DNA of 64,000 bases from Shinella yambaruensis (GTDB lineage: Bacteria > Pseudomonadota > Alphaproteobacteria > Rhizobiales > Rhizobiaceae). The translations under genes and the position numbers were made by a program. Shown piece by piece: positions 31,369-33,251 of the stretch. The stretch spans positions 434,001-498,000 of the forward strand of contig NZ_JALJCK010000002.1 of NCBI RefSeq assembly GCF_022899355.1, written 5' to 3'. The notes beneath the pieces are model-generated. The model made no database searches. It had not been told where the DNA came from and saw only the letters and a program-made list of their open reading frames with translations. Position 1 is the first letter of the stretch, and each line of letters starts with the position of its first letter.

Positions 31369-31714
31369 GGCGTTCTCCATTTTAATCTATGATTCTCTAT
31401 AAAAATTATAGATTAAAGGAAAAGCACGCTATTTTCGGCTCGTCTGGAGGAAAGATCGCCCACGCATCCGGTGGCCTCCTAGGCCCCGGCGGGCGTATCG
31501 CGCGCCGCTCCTGCTTTTCCGGAGCCTTCCCGTCTCTCAGATAACGGAGGATTTTCCGTGATATCGAACGGTTTTGCATTCGCAGCGGATGGGGCGTTCG
31601 TTCCATTGGAGGAAAGATTCTTGGAAAGAATTTTCTCCTTGAGCGTGTTTCGCGCATTTATTACCCATCCGGTCATTGAAACGCGAAACACGGGCCGCGG
31701 GCCGGGAGACTTCG
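31369..31714. other. Control region between msuE and the Met-rich gene
   Basis: Next to msuE lies the inverted repeat at 31381-31417. The remaining 300 bases form the leader of the Met-rich gene. It contains a GGAGG followed by an in-frame GTG at 31558, but that frame runs into low-complexity sequence over the Met-rich gene and is not credible. No known riboswitch was recognised. Confidence 0.5.
31381..31417. promoter_or_regulatory. Ten-base inverted repeat of the sulfur box at msuE
   Basis: TTTAATCTAT (31381-31390) and ATAGATTAAA (31408-31417) are exact complements separated by 17 bases that contain CTATAAAAATTATAG-like sequence. This carries the AATCTAT/ATAGATT core seen at ssuA, at the second SBP gene and at the sugar-type importer. 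Confidence 0.6.
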
Positions 31715-32044
31715 ATGAACACTGCGATGAACATGATGCCGATGATGAACGCCATGATGGGTGGCATGGGCCAGCCGATGATGTCGCCGATGATGATGAA
31801 CGGCATGATGCCGATGATGGGCGGCATGCCCATGATGATGCCGATGCCCATGCCGATGATGATGAGCACGATGTCCTGCAAGATGACCGACGCCGGCATG
31901 GTCTGCGAGATGAAGCCGATGGACGGCATGGACCCGGCGATGTTCATGGAATGCTGCAAGCGCATGATGGCCATGATGAACGGCGGCATGCCGATGATGA
32001 TGATGTGCGGCGGCATGATGATGTGCTGCTCGATGGCCGCCTGA
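31715..32044 (+). CDS. Methionine- and cysteine-rich small protein
   Basis: A 109-residue low-complexity protein with 48 Met (about 44%) and seven Cys, so about half of all residues contain sulfur. Runs such as MMNGMMPMMGGMPMMMP are joined to a short less repetitive part (CKMTDAGMVCEMKPMDGMD, then FMECCKRMM). There is no signal peptide. Three points support this frame over others that are open because of repeated ATG: GGGAGA eight bases before ATG 31715, GC-rich third positions in non-Met codons, and a terminator 24 bases after the stop. It may store sulfur or bind copper(I) through thioether groups. Its place in a sulfur island next to a SutR-like regulator favours a sulfur role, but this is inference. 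Confidence 0.75.
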   Translation: MNTAMNMMPMMNAMMGGMGQPMMSPMMMNGMMPMMGGMPMMMPMPMPMMMSTMSCKMTDAGMVCEMKPMDGMDPAMFMECCKRMMAMMNGGMPMMMMCGGMMMCCSMAA

Positions 32045-32067
32045 GGCGCATCGCACCGCAAAGCTAT

Positions 32068-32093
32068 AAGGCCTCCCCTCCGGGAGGCCTTTT
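32068..32093 (+). terminator. Rho-independent terminator of the Met-rich gene
   Basis: AAGGCCTCCC and GGGAGGCCTT form a ten-base stem with loop CTCC (32068-32091), ending in TTTT. It closes the Met-rich transcript. Confidence 0.85.
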
Positions 32094-32102
32094 CATATGG
32101 CC

Positions 32103-32123
32103 GGGCCTCCCTTGGGGAGGCCC
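32103..32123. terminator. Second hairpin between convergent genes
   Basis: GGGCCTCCC and GGGAGGCCC with a three-base loop, directly beyond the stop of the XRE-cupin gene on the minus strand. It is a likely stop for that gene, although no clean T-run follows. Confidence 0.5.
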
Positions 32124-32124
32124 C

Positions 32125-32742
32125 TCATATGTGGATGACGTCCCGGTATGTCGAGACGAGATAGACGGTCGCGGGGCTGCCGGTCATGTTGCGGTAGACG
32201 TGCGGCACGTCCGCCTCGAAGACGAGGGCGTCGCCTTCACCGAGAATATAGGGCTGCTTGCCGACGATCACTTCGACCGTGCCTTGCGCGACGACGAGGT
32301 TTTCCACGGTGCCGTTGCGGTGGGCTTCGGCCCGCTCGGCATGGTGCGGCGCCAGCCGCAATTCGTAGAATTCCACGGTGCGGTCACCGTCATAGGGAAA
32401 GAGCGCGCGGGTCTCGAATTTCCCGTCGCTCGACGACAGAGTCTTGGAGGCCGAGCGGGTGAGCAGCACCGTCGCCGGCTCTTCCGCCTCGATGATCAGC
32501 GAGCCGCAGGTGACGTCGAGGGCCGCGGCGATCTTGGCGAGGATGCTGAGCGTCGGGCTGCTCTTGCCGGTTTCGATCTGCCCCAGCATGGCCCGGCTGA
32601 CGCCGGAGACCTTGGCGAGCCGGTCGAGCGAATAGCCGCGCCGCGTTCTCAGCCGGCGCAGGTGCTGGCCGGTCCGTATGCAGATCGCGTCCGACGGCGC
32701 CGGAGCGGTTTCCCGGTCGAGCACGGCGACTTCACCGCGCAT
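32125..32742 (-). CDS. XRE-cupin transcriptional regulator, SutR-like
   Basis: A 205-residue regulator with an N-terminal XRE helix-turn-helix (about 25-80; LRTRRGYSLDRLAKVSGVSRAMLGQIE as spaced motif LRRLR...VSGVS...QIETGKSSPT) and a C-terminal cupin (about 110-200; EAHRNGTVENLVVAQG and ALVFEADVPHVY). E. coli SutR (YdcN), a regulator of sulfur utilisation genes, has this architecture. It sits in the middle of the sulfur island, overlaps a 61-residue protein gene upstream and faces the Met-rich gene. It is a good candidate to bind the shared AT-rich boxes, but this is not proven. Confidence 0.9.
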   Translation of the reverse strand: MRGEVAVLDRETAPAPSDAICIRTGQHLRRLRTRRGYSLDRLAKVSGVSRAMLGQIETGKSSPTLSILAKIAAALDVTCGSLIIEAEEPATVLLTRSASKTLSSSDGKFETRALFPYDGDRTVEFYELRLAPHHAERAEAHRNGTVENLVVAQGTVEVIVGKQPYILGEGDALVFEADVPHVYRNMTGSPATVYLVSTYRDVIHI

Positions 32743-32917
32743 AGGCCCACGGGCTCGTAACGACCGGGAAGAACGTCCAGACAGGAACCCACATCATCAT
32801 CGGCTGCATGCCGGTCGGCTGTATTGCGGCCTGCGCTGGAAGAGACGGCGCGGAGGCCTTGCGGCGTGCGTCGCGATAGGCCTGGAAATCAACGATTTTC
32901 GCACTTTCGGCTGCCAT
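32732..32917 (-). CDS. Small conserved-looking protein overlapping the SutR-like gene
   Basis: A 61-residue protein with a polar N-terminus (KIVDFQAYRDARRKA), then a Pro/Gln linker, then MQPMMMWVPVWTFFPVV at the C-terminus. ATG 32917 has GGGGGA six bases upstream and the stop overlaps the regulator start by 11 bases, so translation is probably coupled. Not recognised as a known family. The aromatic/Met C-terminus might interact with a membrane or with the Met-rich protein; this is only a suggestion. Confidence 0.6.
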   Translation of the reverse strand: MAAESAKIVDFQAYRDARRKASAPSLPAQAAIQPTGMQPMMMWVPVWTFFPVVTSPWAYAR

Positions 32918-33251
32918 GAATGTCCCCCGGCGTGATTGTCTATAAGAATTATGTGTTTCTCGCCGGCATGAAAGGCAGGCCCACTCAAAAGGGGTGGCGT
33001 GGCAGGAAAAGTTTTTCCTTTGCCGGGCTCGGCGCGAAACGGGAGGCGAGGCGCCAGGGTGGTTCTGCGATGCCGGGCCGGCCAAGCGGCCGGGCATTTT
33101 TCTGCCATGGCTGCGGCGCCGATGCCCGGCGAAAGGGGGCGGCATAGGAGAAAAAACTACGAGGCCCGGGAAAGGTTGGAATGGGTGCCCTCGAAATCAA
33201 TTATATTCTATAGATTATATAATCTACATGATCTTGACCCAGGGGAACGCC
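32918..33251. other. Divergent control region upstream of ssuA
   Basis: It separates the small protein/SutR-like pair from ssuA. A GC-rich hairpin with T-run (about 33071-33102, GGCCG...CGGCC then ATTTTT) may be a terminator or leader element. The sulfur box lies at 33205-33226. Open frames here show no family features, so no gene is called. Confidence 0.5.
33205..33226. promoter_or_regulatory. Sulfur box with 16-base perfect palindrome at ssuA
   Basis: ATTCTATAGATT begins at 33205 and is fused to TAGATTATATAATCTA (33211-33226), a perfect palindrome 25 bases before the ssuA start. TATAGATTATAT is shared exactly with 50819-50830. Confidence 0.65.

Follow-up and report, generated by a model that had tools for sequence, protein, structure and literature searches.

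A methionine-rich protein paired with an XRE-cupin regulator in Shinella yambaruensis and distant bacteria, and its possible role as a sulfur amino acid reserve

The window is a stretch of 64,000 nucleotides from Shinella yambaruensis (assembly GCF_022899355.1, contig NZ_JALJCK010000002.1, positions 434,001 to 498,000). It contains a small gene for a methionine-rich protein. The gene converges with a regulator gene, which overlaps a gene for a micropeptide. The features of the locus are as follows.

31555 to 31568, + strand: dyad site A, one mismatch, a proposed operator 42 bp upstream of site B.
31597 to 31610, + strand: dyad site B, TCCR-N6-YGGA, one mismatch, a proposed operator (promoter comparison).
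31704 to 31708, + strand: Shine-Dalgarno-like GGGAG, 6 nt 5' of the ATG.
31715 to 32044, + strand: Met-rich protein gene, 109 aa with 48 Met and 7 Cys (translation and frame selection tests).
31715 to 31858, + strand: residues 1 to 48, a variable low-complexity Met/Pro/Gly/Asn tail (comparison with 39 relatives).
31859 to 32041, + strand: residues 49 to 109, a conserved core (alignment; predicted beta-beta-alpha-beta-beta, low confidence).
32068 to 32091, + strand: terminator-like hairpin then TTTT, between the convergent genes (folding z of -4.2 for 32040 to 32150).
32125 to 32742, - strand: SutR-like XRE-cupin regulator, 205 aa (domain, SutR and 1Y9Q matches).
32732 to 32917, - strand: micropeptide, 61 aa, overlapping the start of the regulator gene by 11 nt.

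The translated 330-base frame has a Met+Cys share of 50.5%. Of the window's 364 ORFs that are 60 aa or longer, the runner-up has 13.5%. A preliminary description had given the product 48 Met and seven Cys in 109 residues and the gene its own ribosome site and terminator. Translation confirms the composition. The ribosome site is conserved in relatives, and the hairpin and T run form a terminator-like element. The hairpin was absent from the output of a terminator consensus scan, and a sigma-70 scan returned no promoter. Control by a leader peptide or riboswitch was rejected. The window contained no Rfam family, and no sulfur operon lies downstream on the same strand, so the Met-rich gene is not a leader peptide. 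An alphaproteobacterial ar15 sRNA (1789-1903, - strand, of locus L011) was the sole Rfam match in 13 loci.

The Met frame is the frame under selection. Over 11 disjoint pairs of gap-free cores, the ratio of nonsynonymous to synonymous change, relative to expectation, was 0.17 in this frame. It was 0.57, 1.1, 1.3, 1.4, and 2.0 in the five other frames. With all pairs on the Met-frame alignment, which are not independent, it was 0.34 in the Met frame versus 1.0 to 3.9 in the others. Core differences at codon positions 1, 2, and 3 numbered 56, 53, and 92. Of 49 loci scanned by script, 42 have a Shine-Dalgarno-like site ahead of the Met-rich ATG. The script took an earlier start in four further loci (L007, L036, L038, and L039). 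Their starts were set by the motif, GGAG or AGGAG, seen in the DNA before the Met-rich ATG. The remaining three are L004 (wrong strand read), L044 (a remnant), and L049 (tail lost). The frame chosen in the preliminary description is therefore upheld, by selection in that frame and by the kept ribosome site. Its statement that frames stay open on both strands held in part. The antisense His frame has a stop in only 2 of 39 relatives, but frame +1 is interrupted in all 39 and frame -2 in 37. The set of 39 relatives leaves out L049, whose tail is missing.

The protein belongs to a real family common to distant bacteria. Relatives were retrieved from Rhizobiales, Rhodocyclus, Myxococcota, and a proteobacterial family (f44), and their distribution is patchy. 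The collection of named species contained 41 loci with relatives. Five pairs of loci were taken as the same genome under two identifiers (L003/L006, L004/L016, L027/L070, L013/L080, and L023/L104). In the genus of the window, 2 of 20 other genomes carry a relative, or 3 of 21 with the window's own; the Met-rich gene is thus dispensable. A sample of its family across 109 genera gave 3 positive genomes among 199. The phylum of the myxobacterium Pyxidicoccus gave 7 of 97. A profile search of the phylum gave 8 of 398, five of them in f44, and 14 of 25 genomes were positive in one f44 genus. The gene was single copy in all 20 genomes examined. The f44 copies, conceivably from Pseudomonas, contain a core duplicated in tandem. 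Another 44 plasmid records match, and every annotated feature beneath a match is a hypothetical protein.

The Met-rich protein gave no family match in Pfam, NCBIfam, PADLOC, or PHROGs at the thresholds used, and its profile matched no PDB chain at an E value of 10. We found no account of the family in the open-access literature. No described family appears to fit, and the module appears to be new.

The tail is 27 to 95 residues long in the 39 relatives and is made of M, P, G, N, and A. Its Met fraction has a mean of 0.517 (standard deviation, 0.027), and it contains no Cys. Across these sequences the tail conserves its composition but not its order. Whole proteins contain 43 to 53% Met+Cys. 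The tail is without a charged residue in 35 of 39 relatives, and Lys makes up 0.1% of tail residues. His occurs 3 times in the 4,560 residues of the set, and 37 of the 39 proteins have none; the f44 copies carry one each. The first 30 residues lack K and R in 38 of 39 relatives, so there is no sign of an export signal.

The core is about 60 residues long. Every one of the 37 rows of alignment A5 has Met at core positions 1, 9, 14, 36, 40, 47, 48, and 53. Core Cys 7, 16, and 50 are kept at 0.92 to 0.97 in the same alignment, equal to the best Met positions. Mean retention in the core is 0.83 for Met positions and 0.78 for Cys positions. Met and Cys positions are thus retained to a similar degree on average, and the core is therefore more than a tally of sulfur atoms. 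AlphaFold2 models the core as strand-strand-helix-strand-strand with a mean pLDDT of 60.9, or 68.5 with more alignment rows. A fold search with the latter, low-confidence model gave 107 matches, none with E <= 0.001. We treated these matches as meaningless because the pLDDT was only 68.5. In Mesorhizobium sp. AR10 (L049, 5940-6168), the Met-rich tail is lost and the core and regulator are retained.

The regulator encodes HTH_3 (E = 1.3e-14) and Cupin_2 (E = 2.6e-13) domains in Pfam. The preliminary description had called it SutR-like, and it shares 36% identity with E. coli SutR over 180 aligned columns. E. coli SutR has a role in sulfur utilization, as cited in the available portions of PMC8464067 and PMC11332829. 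The closest solved structure is 1Y9Q (E = 5e-26). According to the available text of PMC7901475, 1Y9Q was solved with D-methionine in its cupin pocket. The same text presents XRE-cupins as local regulators with palindromic sites that sense metabolites of the pathway they control.

A convergent regulator gene lies within 500 bp of the Met-rich gene in 58 of 62 loci. This count omits L009, L010, L014, L030, L044, L047, L048, L049, L068, L070, and L104, because they are near duplicates, lie at contig ends, have decayed or lost the tail, or were not added. The four loci beyond the limit are L089 (regulator 4.7 kb away), L090, L091, and L092. The regulator match is about 10 kb off in L091 and L092, and in L092 it covers 80 residues only. 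Lipase_3 and Sel1-repeat proteins lie between the Met-rich gene and the regulator in L089 (628-5338). Other genes also intervene in L091/L106 and L092/L105 of f44. All 40 named-species loci with sequence at that position contain the convergent regulator, including the decayed L044; L014 ends too early.

Regulators that accompany the Met-rich gene are 46 to 89% identical to that of the window, across phyla. Other XRE-cupins of the same genomes are 23 to 36% identical, except for one fragment of 57 residues (53%). In G001 and G724, two genomes that lack the Met-rich gene, no XRE-cupin exceeds 30% identity to the window's regulator. Judged by these identities, the regulators that go with the Met-rich gene form a separate orthologue group. 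The micropeptide completes the module. It is 43 to 85 aa long with a VIDFQAYR-like start and was found by pattern in 42 of 43 loci. Those of L045 and L065 lack the MPVW/PV tail, which leaves 40 convincing cases. It matches no Pfam, PADLOC, or PHROGs family. A role in antiphage defence was rejected: PADLOC gave generic HTH matches of the regulator only, and none for the Met-rich protein or micropeptide.

Conserved dyads precede the Met-rich gene. Of 43 Met-rich gene promoters, 19 contain exact TCCR-N6-YGGA, where 0.45 would be expected; for the micropeptide-regulator unit the count is 8 of 42 promoters, where 0.5 would be expected. With up to one mismatch, 35 of 40 promoters have dyad B near position -119 relative to the ATG. 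Dyad A lies about 42 bp further upstream in 20 of 40. Nine control windows contained the dyad in 0 to 4 of 40. These figures describe rather than test, as the pattern was derived from the same, often closely related sequences. The exact dyad is present in all three myxobacteria of the first set, and Rhodocyclus has it with one mismatch. Four f44 promoters contain no exact dyad. An extended operator pattern has one perfect site in the S. yambaruensis genome, before the Met-rich gene. Sites with three mismatches equal the control, and no other site beats chance; the sulfur genes are therefore not shown to share the regulator.

Palindrome TCTATAANNNTTATAGA was also considered as the regulator's operator. 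It has 0 mismatches upstream of the msuE-like gene and 3 at the micropeptide promoter. It was set aside because the element conserved ahead of the Met-rich gene is the TCCR-N6-YGGA dyad. The perfect palindrome TCTATAAAAATTATAGA before the msuE-like gene has a copy with three mismatches at the micropeptide promoter (31396-31412 and 32939-32955). The window contained 5 palindrome matches versus 0.1 expected. TCTATAAAAATTATAGA may mark a second, shared sulfur regulator.

The preliminary description had placed the gene in a sulfur-acquisition island. That setting is frequent but not obligatory. Of 20 loci, 10 have sulfur-acquisition genes no more than 6 kb away (L007, L011, L012, L017, L033, L039, L040, L041, L043, and L045). 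These genes include SsuA/TauA-like binding proteins, MetY-type enzymes, SsuD, MsuE, CysE, and nitrogenase-like genes beside MetY. The other 10 loci, including all three myxobacteria, contain no recognised sulfur gene within 6 kb. The island as a conserved unit is ruled out; the regulator and micropeptide recur instead. The scan covered 147 of 153 selected ORFs from 20 loci in 20 genomes, with ORFs under 150 aa left out and long ones cut to 600 residues. NMT1 was found in 6 neighbour ORFs versus 0.37 expected (190 copies in 134.9 Mb), which fall in five loci by phmmer. Cys_Met_Meta_PP was found in 4 versus 0.29 expected. Both enrichments are optimistic, since the loci share ancestry and the choice of sulfur families followed inspection of the neighbours. 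The NCBIfam neighbour tally was swamped by ABC ATPases and was not used. The binding proteins of L041 and of Rhodocyclus (L045) pass the NCBIfam cut-off for taurine.

In two loci (L040, 7515-11865; L043, 7558-11810), the module has MetY and genes resembling nitrogenase and NifB as neighbours. The nitrogenase-like genes score far below the Nif cut-offs. At a guess, they encode methylthio-alkane reductases, which feed methionine salvage according to the available part of PMC12552129.

In Metarhizobium album (L044) the module has decayed. Its msuE-like gene is 94% identical to that of the window, and its ssuA and ssuD are 97% identical. At 1552-2160 of the locus, only a 27-residue remnant of the Met-rich gene is left, and the match to the regulator spans 84 of 205 residues. 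Gene and regulator decay jointly and the sulfur genes do not, so in this one case the regulator appears to serve the Met-rich gene first.

Several known systems resemble parts of the module. Met-rich copper proteins (CusF and relatives) contain Met motifs, and by analogy those of the window protein could hold Cu(I). Unlike them, the family has no copper context with six E. coli queries, almost no His, and no export signal seen. Met-rich storage proteins of seeds, such as zeins, are described in the available literature excerpts as likewise storing sulfur amino acids in protein. Zeins are plant seed proteins without sequence relation to the window protein so far as tested. We found no bacterial counterpart to them in the open-access literature. 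MrpX of Azospira suillum and BcrX of Brucella are, like the window protein, small and strikingly Met-rich, with a proposed action of Met side chains. According to the available text of PMC8315932, they carry MXKDX repeats, reside in the periplasm or envelope, and are encoded together with MsrPQ in operons under an ECF sigma factor. No MXKDX repeats were seen by eye in the sequences of the relatives. The family also lacks an MsrPQ neighbour in 53 loci and has a SutR-like regulator instead. Operon partners and repeat type set MrpX and BcrX apart. The partner regulator shares its XRE and cupin domains with SutR (YdcN) and 1Y9Q but forms a separate group tied to the Met-rich gene. The Pseudomonas aeruginosa XRE-cupin units (PsdR, PauR, ErfA, and others) offer a similar architecture in the available text of PMC7901475, with the regulator beside its target, palindromic sites, and a tendency to transfer. 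Their targets are catabolic or transport genes, whereas here the target is a Met-rich protein and the regulator comes with a coupled micropeptide.

The protein could quite plausibly be a cytoplasmic methionine or sulfur reserve or buffer under methionine-sensing control. A methionine-gated reserve is the simplest reading because 1Y9Q holds D-methionine, the partner protein is half sulfur amino acids, and the sulfur setting recurs. Storage is favoured but unproven. In this mechanism the protein would hold methionine in the cytoplasm, as both reserve and buffer of reduced sulfur. The cupin would sense methionine or a close sulfur metabolite, and the regulator would bind the two dyads upstream of the Met-rich gene. 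Synthesis would be allowed when methionine is plentiful, by repression or activation. The core would supply a fold or permit assembly. Proteolysis would give methionine back when sulfur is short. Kept composition, the lack of an export signal, a regulator group of its own, likeness to 1Y9Q and SutR, sulfur neighbours, and dyad B count for a reserve. The 10 of 20 loci without a recognised sulfur gene, the lack of a shared operator, the missing f44 dyads, and the patchy distribution count against it. Core Cys 7, 16, and 50 are also more ordered than storage needs, which counts against a plain store.

Those cysteines bear on an unlikely alternative that deserves some weight, namely that the protein buffers a soft metal, for example Cu(I) or Ag(I), in the cytoplasm through thiolate and thioether groups. 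The core CxM motifs and Cys pair would act with the Met-rich tail. Core Met 5, 9, 14, and 18 are nearly invariant along with the three Cys, and the CxM...GMxCxM spacing resembles a site. The available portion of PMC2684688 lists zinc for the cupin of 1Y9Q. However, L036 and the second core of L045 are examples of lost core Cys, and His is nearly absent, though the f44 copies carry one. The preliminary description had weighed the case that orthologues always lie beside copper-resistance genes. That case did not occur. E. coli copA, cusC, cusF, cusB, cusA, and cueO, searched against 53 loci and the window, gave two stray matches: a distant P-type ATPase (L045) and a generic RND pump (L050).

Somewhat less likely again is a sacrificial oxidant sink or redox sensor. 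Met would be oxidized to the sulfoxide and repaired, or oxidation would switch self-assembly of the tail. High exposed Met content is a known feature of MrpX and BcrX in the available text of PMC8315932, and eukaryotic Met-rich low-complexity domains are discussed in available excerpts as redox-tuned assemblers. The repair enzymes are not neighbours here. E. coli MsrP and MsrQ gave no match in 53 loci and the window at an E value of 1e-6. MsrA gave none in 53 loci, and MsrB matched in one genome among them (L027 = L070). The unseen export signal also argues against this role. No ECF sigma-factor partner was noticed, and the SutR-like regulator is the constant partner.

We consider it improbable that the protein is instead a regulatory partner of the XRE-cupin. 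The core or micropeptide would then act on the regulator or another protein, and Met would tune assembly or report methionine supply via translation. The near-obligatory pairing, the conserved micropeptide that accompanies the same regulator, and a core conserved beyond storage needs fit this proposal, whereas the free variation in tail length and order does not. A spurious frame, with an antisense His- or Ile-rich ORF or a non-coding repeat as the true element, is hardly credible and was ruled out by the frame tests. In its favour, four of the five plasmid records opened (L046, L047, L048, and L050) have the annotated CDS on the opposite strand; L049 has it on the Met strand. Against it, selection is confined to the Met frame, and relatives keep the Shine-Dalgarno site ahead of the Met-rich ATG. 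The opposite-strand calls in those four records mark a blind spot of annotation.

The methionine reserve may be taken one step further, a little more tentatively. The three genes may form a transferable module through which methionine is stored in protein form and set free by proteolysis, and the protein may be the first dedicated bacterial sulfur amino acid reserve protein. Known bacterial reserves hold carbon, nitrogen (cyanophycin), and phosphorus. We know of no dedicated bacterial protein reserve of sulfur amino acids, and none was found in the open-access literature. If the reading is true, the module would be the sulfur counterpart of cyanophycin, and the protein would offer a natural polymer enriched in Met. 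A regulated Met store would give a new picture of sulfur starvation in soil and plant-associated bacteria. Even as a metal or redox device, the protein would be extreme and undescribed, with a tail that is more than half methionine.
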